A DNA stretch of 64,000 bases, taken from assembly GCA_028285105.1 (NCBI GenBank), contig JANQQE010000031.1, positions 1 to 64,000 on the forward strand. The letters run 5' to 3'. Under the pieces are notes generated by a model, which did no database searches, was not told the origin of the DNA, and saw only the letters and a program-made list of their open reading frames with translations. The position numbers and the translations under genes are program-made. This DNA comes from Alphaproteobacteria bacterium. Lineage in GTDB: Bacteria > Planctomycetota > Phycisphaerae > UBA1845. How positions within the stretch are numbered: the first letter of the stretch is position 1; each line of letters begins with the position of its first letter. This document shows positions 5,892-60,047 of the stretch, piece after piece.

Positions 5892-7370
5892 ATGGCCTAC
5901 GAAGTTCTCGCCAGAAAATATCGAAGTCGCGATTTCGGTGAGATCGTCGGTCAGGGTGCAATTGCAACCACGCTGAAGAATGCGATCGAGATGGGCCGCA
6001 TTCATCACGGGTATTTGTTCACCGGTACGCGCGGGGTGGGCAAGACGTCGATGGCGAGGATTCTCGCCAAGGCGCTGAACTGCCACAAGAGCGACGGGCC
6101 CACAGCTTCGCCATGCAGCGAGTGCGAATCGTGTTCGCGCATCGCCGAGGGCAGCGACCTTGACGTGGTCGAGATCGACGCAGCGAGCAACACCGGTGTC
6201 GATAATATTCGCGAGCTTCGCAGCAACGCGGCGTTTCGGCCCGCACGTTCACGGTTCAAGGTCTACATCATTGACGAAGTCCACATGCTCAGTAGCGGCG
6301 CGTTTAACGCGCTGCTCAAGACGCTCGAGGAACCGCCCGAGCATGTGAAGTTCATCCTTGCCACGACCGAGACGCACAAGGTTCCCGCGACGATTCAAAG
6401 TCGTTGCCAGCGTTTCGATTTCAGAAGTATCAGCCCCGCAGATATTGGCGAGCAGTTGCAATCGATTCTGGATCGCGAAGAGATTACGGCTGACCCGATC
6501 GTGGTGCGAAGGGTTTCGCGTGCGGCGAATGGTTCGATGCGCGATGCACTGTCGCTGCTGGATCAATTGCTCGCATACGGTGCGAGCAACCTGACGGCAG
6601 AGACGATCGAAGATGTTTTGCCTGGCGGTCATGACGAAACGTTGTCGTCATTGGTCGATGCGATCGCTCAGCATGATGCGGCGACCGCATTGGAGTGCGT
6701 GGATCGCTCGCTGGTTTCAGGATATACGCCCGAGCGCTTCTGCGAATCGTTTATCGAGTACGCCCGGACGCTGATGATTTTGGCGATCTGCGGTGGCGAG
6801 TCGGAACTCATCGACCTAGCCGGCAGTCAGCGCGAGCAGTTGGTGGCACAGGCGAGTTCATTCGATGCGGCGTCTTATGTCTACATGATCGGTTTGCTTG
6901 AAGAAACGCGTCGTCGGGTGAAGGCGAGTAGCGCTCCGCGGCCATTGATCGATGCGGTGGCCGTGCGGTTGGCGCTGGCCGAGTCGTTCATCGATGTGAG
7001 CGACGCAATCGAGAAACTTGATCCGGGTGAAACGGCAACACAGACAAAGCAAGCCACACCTTCAAAAAAAAAAGTAGCCAAGCCGGAAACCAAATCGCCA
7101 ATACAAGAGGCGAACGTATCATCTCCCCGTAGGTCGAAACCGGTGACTTCAACTGTGGTGGAAACGCCCGTTGCGGAAAGACCGGTGATTGACGAAGAAG
7201 TTGCGGAACTGCCACCGACAAAACCGCGCAAGGTTGACCGGCGGGTCGGAAGCGTATCGGCAGAAGCGAAACGGAAGATGTCGCAGCGGCCTTTGGTCAG
7301 GCGTGTGTTGGAGCAATCCGGAGGCACACTCATCGATGTTCACAAGGTGGACGCGACGGTAGAAGAATAG
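5892..7370 (+). CDS. dnaX: DNA polymerase III subunit gamma/tau
   Basis: Clamp-loader ATPase that opens the beta clamp and tethers polymerase cores. The start is the ATG giving MAYEVLARKYRSRDF, the usual DnaX N-terminus; the open frame upstream to 5658 overlaps the SRP RNA and is not coding. Walker A GTRGVGKTS, a four-Cys zinc module (CHKSDGPTASPCSECESC), DEVHMLS Walker B and the sensor 1 region LATTETHKVPATIQSRCQRF are all present. At 492 aa it has a basic, Pro/Thr-rich C-terminal linker. An A9 run at 7066-7074 (poly-Lys codons) is the sort of slippery tract used in some bacteria to make the short gamma form, but I see no clear stimulatory stem. Starts the dnaX-ybaB-recR cluster. Confidence 0.95.
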   Translation: MAYEVLARKYRSRDFGEIVGQGAIATTLKNAIEMGRIHHGYLFTGTRGVGKTSMARILAKALNCHKSDGPTASPCSECESCSRIAEGSDLDVVEIDAASNTGVDNIRELRSNAAFRPARSRFKVYIIDEVHMLSSGAFNALLKTLEEPPEHVKFILATTETHKVPATIQSRCQRFDFRSISPADIGEQLQSILDREEITADPIVVRRVSRAANGSMRDALSLLDQLLAYGASNLTAETIEDVLPGGHDETLSSLVDAIAQHDAATALECVDRSLVSGYTPERFCESFIEYARTLMILAICGGESELIDLAGSQREQLVAQASSFDAASYVYMIGLLEETRRRVKASSAPRPLIDAVAVRLALAESFIDVSDAIEKLDPGETATQTKQATPSKKKVAKPETKSPIQEANVSSPRRSKPVTSTVVETPVAERPVIDEEVAELPPTKPRKVDRRVGSVSAEAKRKMSQRPLVRRVLEQSGGTLIDVHKVDATVEE

Positions 7371-15320: not shown

Positions 15321-18300
15321 ATGCAAAACAACTTTTCAAATCCAATTCGTCCAGTCGCGTTTTTCGTGCGAATGGCTGCATTCGTTTGCGCGATTTTCTT
15401 GAATTTCGGGGTCGTCGCCCTCGGCCAACAAGCATCTCCAAATGATGGCGATCCGGCTACTCCAAGCGATACAAGTACTACGGGTGAATCGAGTACTTCA
15501 GACGCAACAGCCCCGTCTGAAAAGCCCGCACTTCCCGAAAAAGCAGCAGAGGCCATCACACCGCTGCCGGTCCCAAAAACGAAGGAAGATTTCGAGCGTG
15601 TCAGTCAGGCAATCAACAGGCAATTGGACCAGTTACCAACAGATGCAGTCGGTCCTGAACCGACCACGGGCAGCCAGCAAAAGTCCGAGGCTGTCGCAGC
15701 TGCCCGAGAGGTCTTGACGAAGTGCCTAGAGCAACTTGCCGTTTACGAAGAAATGCTGAAGAAGGCGGCGACGCTCGGTTCGGAAGAGCAAATCAACCAG
15801 CGCACCACCGACATTGACGGCTACCGAAGTCGCACAGCCCAACTTCAAGCCTGGATGAAAGAAAAGCCGACATCGGTCGATCAATCCGAAATCGAAAAGC
15901 GCCGCGCGGACATAGCGGCTGAGTACAAACACATCAATGCCTTAACCGACACGACGAACAAGCAGCAGACCAATCGCACCAACACAATCGGTGAGTTTAC
16001 GCAGCGCGAGTCCGACGCCACGAAGACGGCAGCCGATGCAAGGTTTGAACTAGACACGCTGATTAAAAAGCTTCCGGACGAGTCAGTGGAAGGCATCGAC
16101 GCAGCCACTGCAAGGGATATCCACCAACTTCGTTTGATTTCAAAAGTCTGGAAGGTATTTCTTGCCGATTTGCGGATTGAGCAACTGGCTGCCCAGAAGA
16201 TCAACTTGAATCTTGAGATGTCGGCGACCGATCTGGTGCTGCCTGAGTTGAAGGCATACGTCAAAGCGTTGGGCGACTATCGAACGCGTCTGGAAACCCG
16301 TGCGTCGGTCGGAGAATCGGAGACGATTGAGCAGGAACTCAAGAAGGCCAAGACACCGACAGAGATCGCCTACTGGGATTACCGCAATCTGATCGCGACG
16401 ACGCAGAAAGAGTTTCTCAGTCACCGCGATGGTATCCGCAATCGCTATCGTGAGAGCGACAAGAACGACTTATCGCGAGACATGAAGCAGGTCCGGGCCA
16501 AATACAATCGATTGCAGGATCGGTTGTCGCGAATTGGCGGAACGGAGAAAACCGCAGCATATCGAAGGCTCGTCGATTTGTCCGAAGACTATACCGCGCG
16601 TCTGGCTCAATTGAATGCAGAACTCGATCTCGCCCGCATCGAACTGGATGAACTGCTCATCGCCCAGGACGACGCCGCAGAAGAAATCGCAGTTGCCCGA
16701 AATGAACTCAAAGAGGCAACGTCGAAACTTACGGAACTGCCCGAGCAGGAGTTGTTCGCCGCGCGGTCGGCAGAGTTAGCCGCCAAGTATCGGCCCGCAC
16801 TCGATGAAACGATCAGCGAAGTCATCGCGGCCGCCCGTGGTTCGGTCAATCGTCTTGAAGAGTCGGCCAAGGAATTGACGGTGTTTCTCGACGACCTCGC
16901 CCGATACCGACAGGGTTTGTACTGGTCGTACACGCTTGCCCGCAGTCAGCATATCGGCGGTAAAATCAAATCTGCCTACGACGAAGTCGCATCGGGGCAA
17001 TCTTCAGCGCAGATCAAGGATGGGTTCGCCCAATTGAAGACCACGTCGGCGGTGCTTCAGCCGTCGGTGTTTCGCGTTGGGGCGATTGTGATTGTCATTG
17101 GCGTCATTTTGGGATTCGTCATACGGGCTCGGGCCAATCGCATTGCGGCCAAAACCGAAGAAGACGTCACCGCAGCACTGCAAGCCGGTAACATCAGCGA
17201 AGTCGGGATGACCAGTCGGTTTCGCATTCAAATCGCCAACATCACCGCCTATTGCGTGGTGATCGGATTGCCATTGGCGATGATCGCGGGTTGGATTTTC
17301 CTTTCGCGCTTTCGCGACAATCCATTGGCTATCCTTGTGATGCGGGTTGCGCTGGTGGGCTTAACCGCCGTCATCACGCGGGCTGCTCTGGTTCATTTGT
17401 TCGGTTCGGGCAAACCGCGTTTCAAAATCATTCCCTGTTCGAACAATGTTGCGCAATACTACCGCCGTTGGACCGGTGTATTCTGGTGGGTAACGGTTGT
17501 CCTGTGCGTTCCGGTTGTCGTTCTCAATACGATAGAAGCCGCCTCAGCCCTGCATGACGGTCTTTGGGGCGTGTACTGCACGGTGGCGTTGATATTGGCT
17601 GTGCTGTTTCTGCGCGACCGCAACTCGGTCGTTCGCGTCTTGGGGCGAAAGTTCGCCCAACGTCGGCCCATCATTTTCGGAGCGATTGTGCAGGCGTATC
17701 CGGTTCTTGTGCTTGCGCTGTTGGGGTTGTTGGTGGCTGAGGTAGTTGGGTATGGGGCGCTCGTGGATTACCTGGCGCGAAACGTGGTCCATACGGTGAC
17801 CGCATTTGCGTTGGCGGTGTTGCTCGGCGATGTATTGGGCGACCTTCGGAGGAAAGCCGTCCCGCAGAAAGTCACTGAAGAATCCGACGATGGCGAAACC
17901 GATGCCGATCACGAGTTCGATGAATTGCTCGGTGGGGTCGAGTCGCGCGAGTTGGGTCTGGTCATTGGCGGGATCACTGGCGTTTTTCAGTGGGTGGTTT
18001 GGGTTGGTGCCATCGTCTGGATCTGTGCAGCCTGGGGGATGACGCGCCTGTCGGCACAGTCGGTGCTGACGTACAAGTTGGCTGGCAGTGAAGAGCATGC
18101 GGTGACGATTTGGCGGGTGATCGCCGCGATTGTTGCGTTGTTTGCAATCCTGAAAGTCTCAAAAGCCATCCGCGCGACGCTAAACGCAAAAATCTATCCG
18201 ACGTATGCGGGTATCAACCGCGGCGCGCAGGCGACGATCAATGCGTTGCTGCACTACATGTTGATCGTGGTGGGATTGTACATTTCGCTTCGATTGGTTC

Positions 18301-33548: not shown

Positions 33549-34778
33549 TCAAGCCCATGCCGGAAGTTTGCGCTTTTTGGGTTCGACCTCTGCATTCATG
33601 CGCATCGATATTCGCTTGGGATCGGTGGCGTAGTCGAGTGCGGTGGCAAGGTCGAGTTTGCCGGCTTGCAGATGTTCTATGAGGACTTCGTCGATGGTGA
33701 TCATACCGTCACTTTTGCCGGTAAGGATAGCATCGCCGATCGCCACCAGATTGTTCGAGCGAATCGCGCTGGTCACCGGCAAGTTGCTGAACATCACTTC
33801 ATAGGCCAGGACGCGACGTTGGTTGGGTTGCGCATGCGGTAGCAGGTGTTGGCTTAGCACCATCCGCAGGTTGACAGCAAGTTGCGCACAAATCTCATCG
33901 CTGCGTTCGCGGGGGAAGAGGTCGGTGAATCGGCTGACGGCGCCTTTCGCATCGCGTGTGTGGACGGTGGACAGCACCAGATGCCCCGTCTCTGCCGCGG
34001 TCAGTGCCATTTGCGCAGTTTCGCGATCGCGAATTTCACCGACGAGAATGACATCGGGGTCTTGTCGCAGCCCGTACTTCAAACCAGCCGCAAAACTGTA
34101 AACGTCGACACCGACTTCGCGCTGCGTGATGAGTGCGTTGTCGCCATATCCGTGAACGTATTCGATTGGTTCCTCAATCGTGATGACGCGGCTTGTCGAA
34201 TTCTTGATGATTTCCTGAAGGATAACCGCAAGTGTTGTACTCTTACCCGAACCGGTGACGCCGGTGACCAATACCAGACCGTTGCGAAATCCGACGACAC
34301 GTTTGATGACGTCTTGCGGGAGGCCCGCCCATTCTGCGGTGGGGACCGTACCCGGAACGACGCGGACGCATGCGCCAATGCGTCCATGCGCATAAAACAC
34401 GTTGACGCGGTATCGCTGAAGCGCGCCATCCACTTCGGATTCAAACGAAAAGTCCAGATCGTGCGAGAATGATTCACCGAGTTTGTCAGCCGCTTTTCGA
34501 GCGTCGGAATCGATGTTGTCGCGAATGGACGGTGGGCACACCGACGCCAGCATGTCGGCTAGTGCATCATTGGCAATCGCACTGCCGAACGACTGCAACT
34601 GACCGTGTACGCGAATGCGGGGGCGTTCGTCTCCCAGAACGTGAAGGTCAGACGCTTCGGCTCGTACTGTGTCAGCCAGCAGTGTCTGGAGCGATGATGT
34701 GTCAGCCGCGAGCGGACTCGTGTTTTCTGCTGCTTCAAAGTCTGCGAATGGTTGCGAGTTAGAACCTGGTTCGATCAC
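33549..34778 (-). CDS. pilT: Type IV pilus retraction/twitching ATPase PilT
   Basis: Hexameric ATPase that disassembles the pilus. It is 409 aa long with a roughly 40-residue extra N-terminus. The N-domain is [20 protein letters not shown]; the ATPase has Walker [15 protein letters not shown], an Asp box [11 protein letters not shown]-like ([12 protein letters not shown]), Walker [33 protein letters not shown] and the C-terminal retraction motif region [26 protein letters not shown]. The canonical AIRNLIRE retraction motif is represented by [15 protein letters not shown]. Divergent from the PilZ hybrid-kinase gene 360 nt away, which fits a surface-motility/attachment role. Other pil genes are not in the window. 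Confidence 0.9.
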
Positions 34779-35138: not shown

Positions 35139-37460
35139 GTGTCAAGTGCCTCAACGAACCAGTCTGCAAGTCTATTATCGATTGCCCAGGAGAACGGGCA
35201 ACCTGACAGCGATTCGGGGCTGCGCAAACACACGCGCTACACCTTGGGCATGCGCGTCGAGATCTCAACCGATCCGAGTGCTGGAACGGACGTGCAGTCC
35301 GTGTTGGTACACAACGTCTCTGCCGGTGGCATCGGTGTGTGGACGGAGCGCCAGTTCGCTGTGGGCAGCAATCTTTCCGTACTCGATGTTGAGGGCAGTT
35401 GTTGGATCGACGGAACGGTTCAGCATGCGTCACCCGGAGTCCATGGCTATCTCGTGGGCATTCAGTTTGCGGAAAATCTGTCAACCCTCGACGGTATTGA
35501 CGGGCAAAGTGATTCGGCGGAAAAACAAAGTCCATTCAATGAACTGGCGGCATCACAAACCGCAAAGAGTTCACGATCCGCTCTTTGCCTGCCGCTGACG
35601 TTGGCCCGCATCTTGAAGGGCGGAATCATCGGAACGGTTATAGCAGCTGGTGTCTACCTTGGGCTGTTCATCCTGGATTTTGAGATATTCCCCAGCGAAA
35701 TCGCGATCGGTTTCGGAGGGGCGATCCTCATCGGTGCAAGTTTGAGCATGATCGGTGTGCGACGTGAACGTCGCTTTTTGGAAGGCATCAGCGCAGCCAT
35801 CAATGCGCTGGCTGAAGACGAATCGATTGAAGACCTGCCCGCCGCGCCGACGACCTGCCACAACGCCATCAACCGCAGCATTCAGAAACTGGGCAACCAC
35901 CACCGACAGAAAAATGTTGAAAGTCGCATTCAACGCCAGGCGAATCTTGAACTCGAGGAAGTCAAGTCGGGCATTCTTTCAATCGTTTCATATGACATTT
36001 GTCAGCCGCTCAACGCGATTCAGCAACATGCTGAGGTTTTGCGCGAAGAAGTCGATTCGCTCTCGCGCGAGAGTCGCCTCGATTTGATCGAAACGATCGC
36101 GCAGCAGAGCACCAGTATCGCCCAACAAATCGGTGACCTGGAAGAATTGCAACGTCTTGATAAAGAGACCCACGAATCAGCAGAAACGTTCGGTACTGCG
36201 TGTTGTCTCGAAGATGCCATTGCAGAATCCGTAGCGAGTTTCGAGGCGTTGGCGGAGTCACGATCGATTGGCCTGCGTCTCGATTGCCCGACGTCGCTTC
36301 CGCCAGCTCTTGCCGATGCAGACAAGATTTCGCGCGCGCTTCGGCGATTGATGTCCAACGCCATCGCAGGCACGCCCACCGGCGGATCGGTCCAGGTCAA
36401 TGTCGAAGAACGTCCGTGCGAGTTGGTGGTTTCCGTCGCCGACAACGGCGCAGGCATTCCTCGCGAACGTTGGGGTGCTGCTTTTGACCGGGCTGCAATC
36501 GCCGATGCCTCCGATGAAGCAAAGTTTGAACCGCGCGTGGGATTGGGTTTGTACATCGCCCGCCGCATCGTGGAGTCATACCAGGGACGCATCTGGCTGG
36601 ACAGTGAGTTGGAAAATGGGGCTGTGGTCTACTTCGCGATTCCGACCATCGACACGACGGCTGACGAACCCGTTTCGATCGAACCGTTTGCGGGCAACTG
36701 TCGCGTGGTGGTTTGCGACTCCGATCCGGAATTGGCTTCGATGATGGCCCAGGCGCTGCGTCAGCAGAACTACCATGTGTCCATCGCCCATTGCGGTTCG
36801 CGACTCGTCGATCTGCTTGATCGCGAACCGTTCGATGTTGTCCTGACCGATGTGCAACTTCCCGACATGAGTACGAGCGAACTTTTGACCGCACTCCATG
36901 GCCGCCGAGACATGGGATTCGCAACGATTCTGCACAGCTTTGAAGACGGTTTGGAAAGTGCCCATCGCATGCCCATCGTAGCCTACCTGCATCGGCCAGC
37001 CGACCGCCGTCGGTTGTATGAAGCCGTCGCGCTGGCTGCCAAACGACGACTTGCGACCGGTCAAACGATTTTCCTTCTCGAACACGGTTCTGTGGAAACG
37101 CGGAGACTGCGTGGTGCGATGGAAGAAGCTGGTCACGTCGTAGTGTCCTGCGGAACCATGAAGGATCTGTCGCGACTGCTCCGCTGCTACCGCTGCGACA
37201 GCTACATCGTTCCGCAAGCGGCGGTCCGAGGCGATTGGGGCGAAGTGTTGAAGATTCAGGGACACGACGGTGACGCTGGGGCGATGATGGGAGGCATTCA
37301 GCCGATCGTTCTCGTAGATGAAGTTCGCAAGAGTGAACGGGGCGTCAGCGATCAATTCGGGATCAAAGTTGTGGCATATCGGCCGGGCTTTGAATCTGAC
37401 GTTGTCGCTTCTCTGGAACCCGAGCGGGCTGATCAGGCTGAACTTGTGGGGGCACCATAA
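35139..37460 (+). CDS. PilZ-domain membrane hybrid kinase lacking the phospho-acceptor His
   Basis: A 773-aa signalling protein; the GTG start follows AAGGGAG by 8 nt. An N-terminal PilZ domain has both c-di-GMP motifs, RKHTR (about residue 28) and NVSAGGIG (about 58). Two hydrophobic helices sit at about 168-215. The dimerisation helix reads LSIVSYDICQPLNAI: in HisKA the position after Ser is the phosphorylated His, here Tyr (codon TAT). The HATPase domain is otherwise complete (MSNAIAGTP, DNGAGIP, GLGLYIARRIVE). A receiver domain follows with Asp in VVLTDVQLPD, and a second degenerate receiver-like segment to the end. So c-di-GMP may modulate ATP binding or partner contact rather than autophosphorylation. 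Confidence 0.85.
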   Translation: MSSASTNQSASLLSIAQENGQPDSDSGLRKHTRYTLGMRVEISTDPSAGTDVQSVLVHNVSAGGIGVWTERQFAVGSNLSVLDVEGSCWIDGTVQHASPGVHGYLVGIQFAENLSTLDGIDGQSDSAEKQSPFNELAASQTAKSSRSALCLPLTLARILKGGIIGTVIAAGVYLGLFILDFEIFPSEIAIGFGGAILIGASLSMIGVRRERRFLEGISAAINALAEDESIEDLPAAPTTCHNAINRSIQKLGNHHRQKNVESRIQRQANLELEEVKSGILSIVSYDICQPLNAIQQHAEVLREEVDSLSRESRLDLIETIAQQSTSIAQQIGDLEELQRLDKETHESAETFGTACCLEDAIAESVASFEALAESRSIGLRLDCPTSLPPALADADKISRALRRLMSNAIAGTPTGGSVQVNVEERPCELVVSVADNGAGIPRERWGAAFDRAAIADASDEAKFEPRVGLGLYIARRIVESYQGRIWLDSELENGAVVYFAIPTIDTTADEPVSIEPFAGNCRVVVCDSDPELASMMAQALRQQNYHVSIAHCGSRLVDLLDREPFDVVLTDVQLPDMSTSELLTALHGRRDMGFATILHSFEDGLESAHRMPIVAYLHRPADRRRLYEAVALAAKRRLATGQTIFLLEHGSVETRRLRGAMEEAGHVVVSCGTMKDLSRLLRCYRCDSYIVPQAAVRGDWGEVLKIQGHDGDAGAMMGGIQPIVLVDEVRKSERGVSDQFGIKVVAYRPGFESDVVASLEPERADQAELVGAP

Positions 37461-37723: not shown

Positions 37724-38617
37724 ATGACCAAAGAACGATCCATCAAAACTGCAAACGGATGGCCTACACTTTTCATCCTCTTAGCGGTCTTCCTTGTGGA
37801 CGCCTACGCGATCTATCTGCCGATTCGAAGGCTCGCGGATGGCGGATTCGATGCGGGATGGCTCGCGTTGCTTATTGCCGCAGGGCTTGGGTTCATCGTT
37901 TGGACGATCCTGATGTGCGGTTTTTTTACGCTTCAGCCCAACATGTCAGCCGTCTTGCTTCTTTTTGGGAAGTACAAGGGGACGACGCGGGAGGAGGGAT
38001 TCCGCTGGGCGAATCCGTTCTTGACGAAGCAAAAGGTTTCGCTGCGGGCTCACAACCTCAACGGCGAAAAGCTCAAGGTGAACGACCGCAACGGTAATCC
38101 CATTGAGATTGCGTTGGTCGTGGTCTGGCGGGTGGCAGACACGGCTGAGGCGGTGTTCGATGTTGAAGACTTTGAACACTACGTTGCGATCCAAAGCGAA
38201 TCGGCGCTGCGGCATCTGGCGACGAAGTATCCGTACGACACCGGTGAGAGCGACGAAGAACTTTCGTTACGCGGTTCAATCGACGAAGTGTCCAACGATT
38301 TGCAGGAAGAGCTGGCAGAACGATTGTCGAAAGCCGGGGTCATCATCGACGAAGCCCGTCTCAGTCACCTTGCCTATGCCCAGGAGATTGCAGGCGCGAT
38401 GCTCCAACGTCAACAAGCCGAAGCCATCGTGGCTGCGCGGCGACGAATTGTCGATGGGGCAGTGGGGATGGTTGAGATGGCCCTCGAAAAACTGGAAGAA
38501 CACGACACTGTCAAACTCGACGACGAACGAAAAGCGACAATGGTCAGTAACCTGTTGGTCGTGTTGTGCGGTGAGAAAGCCGCACACCCGGTCGTCAATG
38601 CCGGTTCGCTGTACTAG
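37724..38617 (+). CDS. SPFH-domain (stomatin/flotillin-like) membrane protein
   Basis: A membrane-microdomain scaffold-type protein of 297 aa. Two N-terminal hydrophobic helices (about 14-35 and 46-68) precede the SPFH domain: [76 protein letters not shown] and [50 protein letters not shown], the last part a charged coiled coil. It is followed 78 nt later by a small Arc-type DNA-binding protein, an arrangement I have seen recurrently for this SPFH subtype. Molecular role not established. Confidence 0.88.
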
Positions 38618-57508: not shown

Positions 57509-57851
57509 GTTTCAGAGCGTATTTGATGTTGCCGTTCTTTGCTAGCGACGAGTATCTGACCTTCTGGCTTACCTGAGCAGCTCAGGCCGAACCTCCGGCC
57601 AACAACGATCGTGTTCCTGGAGTACGAATCGTCACCACGGTTGGATCCGGGGGGCGCGTGCTGAATTTCGAATCGGTATCTCTATGAGACCAGGCAACGC
57701 CTCGTCAGACCCGAGCCGGTCTGGCGTCATGACATTTCGGATTGGCAATCCAGATCCCGGATTTCATCAAAGTGAGTTTCTGCTTGGTCCGGCAAGATCC
57801 GCTGGTAAGATGAATTGCCCTCAAAAGCCTAAAGCGAGCCAGGAGTGTCGA

Positions 57852-60047
57852 GTGCCCAGATCAAATCATTGGTTGTATGCCGTATTACTCTGCTGGCTTC
57901 TGACCGGGCACGTGCGCGCGCAAGCTACCGCGAAGTCCGCACCCGTATTTGTGCGCGGTTTCGCCCCGGACGCCGCGGTCCTTAGAACGGGGCGGCAAGA
58001 GATGCTGGTTGCCGTCGTCAAGTGCATTCGTAGACCCTCCGGTCAGCTCAGCGTAAGAATGAGTGTTCCATCAAACGTCAAGCTCCTGAGCAGCGCTGAC
58101 GTTCCGCTGGTCAAACTCGAAGCGGGCGAAATTACCCGAGTGGAATGGCATGTGGTGGCGAGCGAACCGTTGCGGGCCACTGCCGAGATTCACATCCTCG
58201 ATGCGGACTCGAAGCAGATCGATTCAAAACGAATCTCCATCCGATTTGAATCACCCATCGACGCCAAAACGGAAAGCTATGTTCCAATTCCGAAAACTCA
58301 AGACAGCGAGCATTTGATTCTCGCGCACTATTGCCCGCTTTGGAAATACGGTGCCCATAGCATGGGATGGGATACAATTGAGCCGTGGCCCGAACGCAAG
58401 CCGGCGATAGGCTTTTACGATGAGGGAACACCGCTGGTCGCGGATTGGCAGATCAATTACGCCCTTGAACATGGCATCGATGGTTTCATCTTCACATGGG
58501 ATAAGGCCTGGTTAAATCCGGCGATTACAAATTCGCCGGGTGAAGGTTTGACCAACGGTTTTCTCCGATCACGTTTTCTCAACAAATCCAAGTTCTGCAT
58601 TAACTGGGCAGATCAATATTACACATCAACGCGTCAGGAATTACTCGATCAGATTTTTCCGTTTTGGTTGGAACATTTCTTCAAACATCCTTCATACGTT
58701 TGTATCGACAATCGTCCCGTACTCTTTGTGACACATCCGGAACAAGTTGCATCCTGGATGGGTGGCATCGAGGAATCGAAAAATTTATTCGAAGAGCTTC
58801 GGAACCGCTGTCGAAAGCATGGATTCGATGGACTGACCATCGTGGGATGTGTTCCCACAGCAGAACCGGATCGTCTCAAGACAATTGCCCGGGCCGGTTT
58901 CGATGCAACGTCGGCCTATATTTTCTGGGCTGATTTGTGGAATGAAGCAAAAAAAGATGTGGAAGGCATCCCGACGTTTTCTCACGCAGCAGCACTAGAG
59001 GTTCATGGGGAGTTGTTGACGCAGCGGCAGCAACACGGCGTGCTTCCGGATATCGTAACGGTGCAGATGGGTTGGGATTCTCGTCCATGGCATGGCGTCG
59101 ACACGCCTTATTATCTGGAAGGCACGACCGTCGAGGCATTCGAGAAGGCATGCAAGAAGGCGAAACAAATCGTCCAATCGAACGATCAGGACCAAATCGA
59201 CGGGCAAGTTGTCGTCATTGATAACTGGAACGAGTTTGGCGAAGGCCATTTCATCGAACCGACTGCTGGCTACGGATTCGAGTTTCTGGATGCTGTCAAG
59301 AATGTATTCGTCGATGATCCCAAGCCTTGCACACATATCGTGCCGACTGACCTTGTGATCGATCGGCCCGATCACGTATTTGAGCAATGTCGTGGAATCA
59401 TGCACAAGCCCTATCGCCGTGCGAAAGTTGAATCCAAAGGGCTTGTCGCAGCGTGGCTGTTCGACAGAGAACACGAATACATTGCAGAGGATTCTTCTGG
59501 AGCCGGTTTTCACGCATTGAAGAGCGCGGCTGATCCTGTCTCTGGAGTCAAGGGCCTCGCATTTCAAAGCAAGCCGTTTGGCTACGCCTGTCTGGGGGCC
59601 GACGACGCATTTTATCCGCAAGACGGTGTGACAGTGCAATTCTGGTACAAGGCTTATAAGCCTCAGGAAAATGCGTTTATCGTCAACACAGCCGCGGAGG
59701 AGAATACCGGTTACGGAGTAGCGATGAGAAACGGCAAGCTAGCATTCTTTGTGAATTGGACGCAGTTGGTCGAGACGCCACAAGTCATTCCCTTAGGAGT
59801 CTGGACCCATGTCGCGGCCACCTGCGACAACCGCAAAATGACCCTATATGTCGATGGCGAATCAAAAGTCAGTGCCGACAACGGTCAACAAATCCGCCCG
59901 GCCCACAAAGGGACAATTGCAATCGGTGCATACAGTCCAGGGGCGACCAACTTCCAAGGCGCAATTGACGAACTCAAGATCCACCGTCGCGCCCTTAGCG
60001 CGAATGAAATCCGTATTGCTGCATCAATTGGGGCAGGTTCTCAGTAG
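57852..60047 (+). CDS. Secreted GH99-like/WbsX-domain protein with LamG module
   Basis: A 731-aa exported carbohydrate-active protein. I choose the GTG 6 nt after AGGAG: MPRSNHWLYAVLLCWLLTG is then a clean signal peptide ending at RAQ; longer frames start at 57810 and 57684. After a beta-rich domain (about 30-140) comes the WbsX/GH99-like barrel: LILAHYCPLWKYG, YALEHGIDGFIFTWDKAWLN, PSYVCIDNRPVLFV, TVQMGWDSRPWHG and VVVIDNWNEFGEGHFIEPTAG, whose WNE-x-GEG is the family hallmark. The last 200 residues are a LamG jelly-roll (VAAWLFDRE to DELKIHRRALSANEI). Family members act on mannosidic or other glycans; exact substrate unknown. Confidence 0.85.
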   Translation: MPRSNHWLYAVLLCWLLTGHVRAQATAKSAPVFVRGFAPDAAVLRTGRQEMLVAVVKCIRRPSGQLSVRMSVPSNVKLLSSADVPLVKLEAGEITRVEWHVVASEPLRATAEIHILDADSKQIDSKRISIRFESPIDAKTESYVPIPKTQDSEHLILAHYCPLWKYGAHSMGWDTIEPWPERKPAIGFYDEGTPLVADWQINYALEHGIDGFIFTWDKAWLNPAITNSPGEGLTNGFLRSRFLNKSKFCINWADQYYTSTRQELLDQIFPFWLEHFFKHPSYVCIDNRPVLFVTHPEQVASWMGGIEESKNLFEELRNRCRKHGFDGLTIVGCVPTAEPDRLKTIARAGFDATSAYIFWADLWNEAKKDVEGIPTFSHAAALEVHGELLTQRQQHGVLPDIVTVQMGWDSRPWHGVDTPYYLEGTTVEAFEKACKKAKQIVQSNDQDQIDGQVVVIDNWNEFGEGHFIEPTAGYGFEFLDAVKNVFVDDPKPCTHIVPTDLVIDRPDHVFEQCRGIMHKPYRRAKVESKGLVAAWLFDREHEYIAEDSSGAGFHALKSAADPVSGVKGLAFQSKPFGYACLGADDAFYPQDGVTVQFWYKAYKPQENAFIVNTAAEENTGYGVAMRNGKLAFFVNWTQLVETPQVIPLGVWTHVAATCDNRKMTLYVDGESKVSADNGQQIRPAHKGTIAIGAYSPGATNFQGAIDELKIHRRALSANEIRIAASIGAGSQ

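Follow-up and report, generated by a model that had tools for sequence, protein, structure and literature searches.

Gene Content and Domain Architecture of the Locus

The gene at 35139-37460 of the window (the whole stretch of 64,000 nucleotides analysed here) encodes a 773-aa protein in which a PilZ domain is joined to a histidine kinase core and two receiver-type domains (Table 1). The reading frame begins with a GTG codon at 35139, a start that is common to the congeners at the same point, and is open from 35076. Four Pfam matches were obtained, all above the gathering cut-offs: PilZ (residues 29-115), HisKA (277-342), HATPase_c (393-502), and Response_reg (523-630). Two hydrophobic segments detected by hydropathy lie between the PilZ domain and the kinase core and are also found in most relatives. 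The C-terminal domain was aligned with the receiver of the same family by hhalign (P = 2e-7, against 0.6-0.9 for control domains), indicating a second receiver-like domain that lacks the Asp.

Table 1. Coordinates of the features at the locus (positions in the window).
Feature	Position	Strand	Evidence
Divergent PilT/PilU-family ATPase	33549..34778	-	TIGR01420; conserved neighbour in the genus only
Probable hybrid pseudo-kinase, PilZ - two TM helices - HisKA(Tyr) - HATPase_c - receiver - pseudo-receiver, 773 aa	35139..37460	+	Pfam; full-length open orthologues in congeners
PilZ domain, R29xxxR33 and N59xS61xxG64	35223..35483	+	Pfam, motif alignment
Two predicted transmembrane helices, residues 163-181 and 188-206	35625..35756	+	Hydropathy
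DHp (HisKA) domain	35967..36164	+	Pfam
Tyr285 (TAT), phospho-acceptor position; His, Gln, His, and Ser in congeners	35991..35993	+	Alignment
ATP-binding (HATPase_c) domain	36315..36644	+	Pfam, alignment to canonical relatives
Receiver domain; Asp571 at 36849-36851; D527/D529 kept	36705..37028	+	Pfam, alignment
Second, Asp-less receiver-like domain (residues about 640-763)	37056..37427	+	hhalign
SPFH/Band 7 protein	37724..38617	+	Pfam; downstream neighbour conserved in the genus

The motifs RxxxR and (D/N)xSxxG are the c-di-GMP motifs of PilZ receptors, and their presence in this protein suggests that its PilZ domain probably binds c-di-GMP. A preliminary description of the gene had reported an intact N-terminal PilZ domain (RxxxR, NxSxxG) and a preserved receiver Asp, and both were confirmed, the receiver having D571 together with the acids D527 and D529. 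It had overlooked the two hydrophobic helices, the Asp-less receiver-like domain, and the damage to the N, F, and G2 boxes. The PilZ residues R29, R33, S61, G63, and G64 and the receiver residues D527, D571, and S600 were invariant in 17 of 17 orthologues. Regarding the receiver switch residues, Ser600 is present, and Arg619 (36993-36995) occupies the position where Lys is usual, a substitution that is family-wide and extends to the canonical members.

As had been described, the gene lies beside a divergent pilT, whose product matched TIGR01420 with 328 bits (cut-off 319). In other genera, neither the pilT nor the SPFH gene adjoins the canonical copies. Since the whole region is syntenic in the genus and pilT is not adjoining elsewhere, the neighbourhood provides only a hint of a pilus role for the protein. 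Elsewhere in the window, 57684-60047 encodes one protein that matches a WbsX-type glycosyltransferase and also contains a laminin-G-like domain.

Variation at the Phospho-Acceptor Site

The gene was present in all five genomes of the genus, and the four congeners, with open full-length frames, were 50-76% identical to the window protein. The relatives in other genera (canonical relatives) showed about 28-36% identity. In the tree, the genus was placed on one fully supported stem with a length of 1.4 changes per site.

The reported replacement of the phospho-acceptor His by Tyr was verified (SIVSYDICQPL, residue 285), since in alignments with solved kinases such as HK853 (2c2a), Tyr285 falls on the His of SHELRTPL. 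Among the 22 HisKA matches of the window genome, all 21 others have His at this position, and the canonical relatives carry SHDLRTPL, SHDMRTPL, or SHDLRTPM in 13 of 13 readable sequences, the 14th being masked at the site. Within the genus, the residue is Tyr in the window genome, His in G002 and G004, Gln in G001, and Ser in G003 (read from contig C173). The emphasis that had been placed on Tyr, with conservation among orthologues as the proposed check, was not supported, as Tyr occurs in one of the five genomes; a DivL-like function of a conserved Tyr was rejected on the same ground. His in orthologues had in turn been taken to imply a sequencing error or a local mutation. His was indeed found in two congeners, but that implication was wrong, since the other two have Gln and Ser. 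An error of sequencing or assembly, or a mutation private to one genome, would need the change of one base (CAT to TAT) and would agree with the two His-bearing congeners, but it is hardly credible with Gln and Ser in two further congeners and with neighbouring positions altered genus-wide; a sequencing error was thus rejected as the source of Tyr. The site is therefore neither a conserved Tyr nor an artefact, because His, Gln, and Ser also occur at it and the sites around it are altered throughout the genus.

The H-box residue D286, beside the acceptor site, is kept, and in the two genus members that retain the His it is likewise followed by Asp. At the +4 position, where Thr or Asn serves the phosphatase function of HisKA kinases, the window protein has Gln289, and the Thr was lost in all five genomes. 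The two G003 loci L044 and L045 (contigs C173 and C271) overlap within the gene at 91% DNA identity and represent strain variants or two copies.

In addition, a second pseudo-kinase of the same family, independent of the genus, was observed in G100 (L040:406-2601), in which the whole H-box is gone and there is no HisKA match; His replaces the N-box Asn, the partner genes are absent, and the PilZ arginines and the receiver Asp are kept. L040 grouped with a canonical member of its own family. One shared origin of its losses and those of the genus was disfavoured (AU p = 0.022; L040 is a long branch), and the tree indicates, with the same long-branch caveat, that the G100 copy lost the H-box independently. 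Parsimony on the tree required the His to have been lost four times, on three separate occasions within the genus and once in L040. Another His, His297 (36027-36029) in the DHp domain, 12 residues past the acceptor, is present in all five genomes of the genus and in L040, and the canonical relatives have Tyr there.

Decay of the Kinase Core

The preliminary description had the ATP-binding domain as preserved, which is true of its recognition by HATPase_c and of N407 and the G1 box, and not of the N, F, and G2 boxes. Relative to the canonical relatives, the window protein carries N403R and K410A (N box), F452A (F box), and G466R (G2 box), while the Mg-binding N407, D435, G437, and G439 of G1, and GLGL of G2 are kept. 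The scores were reduced in both domains, with 33.9 bits for HisKA and 65.8 bits for HATPase_c against 69.3 and 108.9 bits in a canonical relative. At alignment columns that do not vary among 11 canonical relatives, Thr289, Asn403, Lys410, and Phe452 were found to be changed in all five genomes of the genus, including the two with His, and the first Gly of G2 in four of five; one congener (L005) had lost GLG of G2. Changes at such columns were not significantly more frequent in the kinase domains than in PilZ and REC (Fisher P = 0.10-0.12). Because Thr289, Lys410, and Phe452 are changed even in the two His-keeping members, the pattern suggests that the phosphotransfer chemistry was degraded first, in the genus ancestor, and that the His drifted afterwards. 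Weak kinase activity is possible in these two congeners, and since N407 and the G1 residues D435, G437, and G439 are kept, the window protein may still bind ATP.

Of the features of an active kinase, the window protein thus has an intact G1 box, and lacks the acceptor His, the Thr/Asn at +4, and unchanged N, F, and G2 boxes. A kinase that is altered yet still active, in which Tyr285 or the genus-wide His297 accepts phosphate from ATP, would agree with the retention of N407, the G1 box, GLGL of G2, and D286, and with a His at 297 in all five genomes where canonical relatives have Tyr. This is very unlikely, as Tyr is not conserved at 285, Thr289, Lys410, Phe452, and Gly466 are lost, and His297 lies 12 residues downstream of the site and is shared by L040, which has no H-box at all; moreover, DivL, with Tyr550, was found to be without kinase and phosphatase activity (PMC4211667). 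The earlier view that the protein is something other than a kinase is well supported by the loss of phosphotransfer and ATP-handling residues.

Loss of Partner Genes

The canonical copies head an apparent operon encoding the kinase, a stand-alone receiver (about 130 aa), and a GAF-HD-GYP protein (about 470 aa), the latter with HD and HHExxDGxGYP motifs that place it in the c-di-GMP phosphodiesterase family. The receiver, and the GAF plus HD domains, were confirmed by Pfam. The three genes nearly abut or often overlap (L046, L047, L048, L050-L053, L055, L057, L058, L074, and L075). In all 14 canonical genomes, a receiver orthologue (58-75% identity) lies next to the kinase, and 12 of the 14 also have the HD-GYP gene there; G005 is without it, and in G020 the contig ends. 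In G027 (L057, near 6006-6767), the HD-GYP gene of the operon was found in two distant pieces (17005-17781 and 272763-273671).

In the five genomes of the genus and in G100, no orthologue of the receiver was found genome-wide, the best matches being ordinary paralogues with at most 39% identity. The same was true of the HD-GYP protein, with best matches of 1e-58 and 36% identity, where full-length orthologues gave E < 1e-118. The five genomes of the genus, with 90-98% completeness, agree on the absence, although a gene may be missing through incomplete assembly. The coincidence of partner loss with phosphosite loss is suggestive, resting on two independent events and not statistically strong. 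The gene content of the canonical operon makes a c-di-GMP feedback circuit likely, in which PilZ would sense the messenger, a phosphorelay would run via the receivers, and the HD-GYP protein would act on the messenger. GGDEF matches numbered 9-14 in each of the five genomes of the genus, so c-di-GMP synthesis is plausible in all of them.

Selective Constraint on Individual Domains

The genus/outgroup comparison was made for each domain as the ratio of genus to outgroup divergence, which was 0.82 for the ATP-binding (CA) domain, 0.58 for PilZ, 0.63 for DHp, and 0.45 for REC. In 2000 bootstrap replicates, the CA ratio exceeded that of REC every time and was higher than that of PilZ (P = 0.017); the additional relaxation of CA relative to DHp alone was not significant (P = 0.12). 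Conservation inside the genus was highest for DHp (77%) and REC (74%) and, among the folded domains, lowest for the ATP domain (61%), whereas the canonical relatives conserve this domain better than either REC or PilZ. Among the folded domains, constraint has therefore been lost most in the ATP-binding domain. The dN values were 0.06-0.10 for PilZ, DHp, and REC and 0.20 for CA, well below dS in every domain (dS > 1, near saturation). Because dN is far below dS throughout while phosphotransfer and ATP residues are lost, the gene is, by these measures, under purifying selection and kept for something other than ordinary kinase function.

These results also bear on a gene on its way out, that is, a kinase drifting after the loss of its partners with little function left. 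The long stem branch, the drifting catalytic residues, and the missing partner genes are what such a gene would show, but the frames of the congeners are full-length and open, dN is far lower than dS in each domain, and PilZ, DHp, and REC are strongly constrained, with DHp the most conserved within the genus; this alternative is unlikely. The preliminary description had proposed a c-di-GMP-gated ATPase or scaffold. For the ATPase, in which the HATPase domain would hydrolyse ATP without phosphotransfer, there are an HATPase_c match well above the cut-off and the remaining adenine-binding and Mg-binding residues. Against this, the domain has lost the most constraint, the N-box Lys410, the F-box Phe452, and one G2 Gly are changed, one congener is without GLG of G2, and histidine-kinase domains rarely turn over ATP in the absence of an acceptor, so that the ATPase half of the proposal is quite improbable and the scaffold is the better half.

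Proposed Function and Origin

The 773-aa protein is, in our judgement, probably a membrane-anchored pseudo-kinase scaffold that likely binds c-di-GMP and has been orphaned from its phosphorelay. Its ancestor would have been a membrane-anchored hybrid histidine kinase with the PilZ domain as c-di-GMP input, and comparison with the canonical copies places it at the head of the operon with the stand-alone receiver and the GAF-HD-GYP gene, where it may have worked in the circuit outlined above. In the genus ancestor, the two partner genes would have vanished, and phosphotransfer would have decayed with the loss of the +4 Thr, the Lys of the N box, and the Phe of the F box; the acceptor His, missing from three of the five members, would have been lost separately in each of them after that. 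The part that conservation indicates to be still under selection would be a dimeric scaffold consisting of PilZ, the DHp helices, and the receiver with its complete acid pocket. Binding of c-di-GMP to PilZ may cause a conformational change in the membrane-bound DHp dimer that would be read via protein contacts, and no phosphate would be transferred from residue 285 of the protein itself. Such contacts could be made by the DHp surface with a second kinase or with a response regulator, as in DivL; alternatively, a different kinase could phosphorylate the receiver.

A broader reading is offered more tentatively, as a real possibility: a c-di-GMP phosphorelay of PilZ hybrid kinase, receiver, and HD-GYP phosphodiesterase may have been dismantled at least twice, with the partners gone, the phosphosite lost, and the PilZ-DHp-receiver body kept in a new contact-based role, giving a PilZ-gated counterpart of DivL. 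How pseudo-histidine kinases arise is seldom visible, and few cases are known, DivL above all. Here, the acceptor position is occupied by His, Gln, Ser, or Tyr in different congeneric genomes, in which catalytic neighbours are already lost, and the change of the acceptor can be tied to the loss of a specific receiver and of a gene of the c-di-GMP phosphodiesterase family. With PilZ as input and HD-GYP as output, the operon of the canonical relatives points to a testable feedback circuit for c-di-GMP.

Comparison with Known Systems

No description of a PilZ histidine kinase of this kind was found among the papers searched, a weak indication that none exists. PilZ receptors of the YcgR type share the RxxxR and (D/N)xSxxG motifs and differ in having no kinase or receiver domains. 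By analogy, the closest precedent would be DivL of Caulobacter crescentus, which works by binding a response regulator (PMC4211667) and whose structure (4q20) was among the solved structures matched by the window protein (E 7e-15). Both have Tyr at the acceptor position and keep the fold of the DHp and ATP domains, and a contact-based role is proposed for the window protein as well. In contrast, DivL has PAS domains, its N, G1, F, and G2 boxes are all intact, and almost all of its homologues carry the Tyr (PMC4211667), whereas the window protein, in which no PAS domain was matched by Pfam, has PilZ, transmembrane helices, and receivers, a Tyr found in one of five genomes of the genus, and boxes that are partly lost.

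The nearest c-di-GMP-binding hybrid kinase is SgmT of Myxococcus xanthus, in which a single chain likewise combines the kinase with a domain that binds c-di-GMP; that domain is a degenerate GGDEF at the C-terminus, in place of the N-terminal PilZ of the window protein's family, and SgmT retains its acceptor His336 (PMC3509222). A pseudokinase variant of ChrS from Corynebacterium glutamicum is similar in being a DHp protein that lacks kinase activity and acts as a modulator of a related kinase, and its heterodimers were seen in two-hybrid assays; it differs in being a laboratory-evolved frameshift in a heme sensor, with neither a natural lineage nor a c-di-GMP input (PMC9491836).
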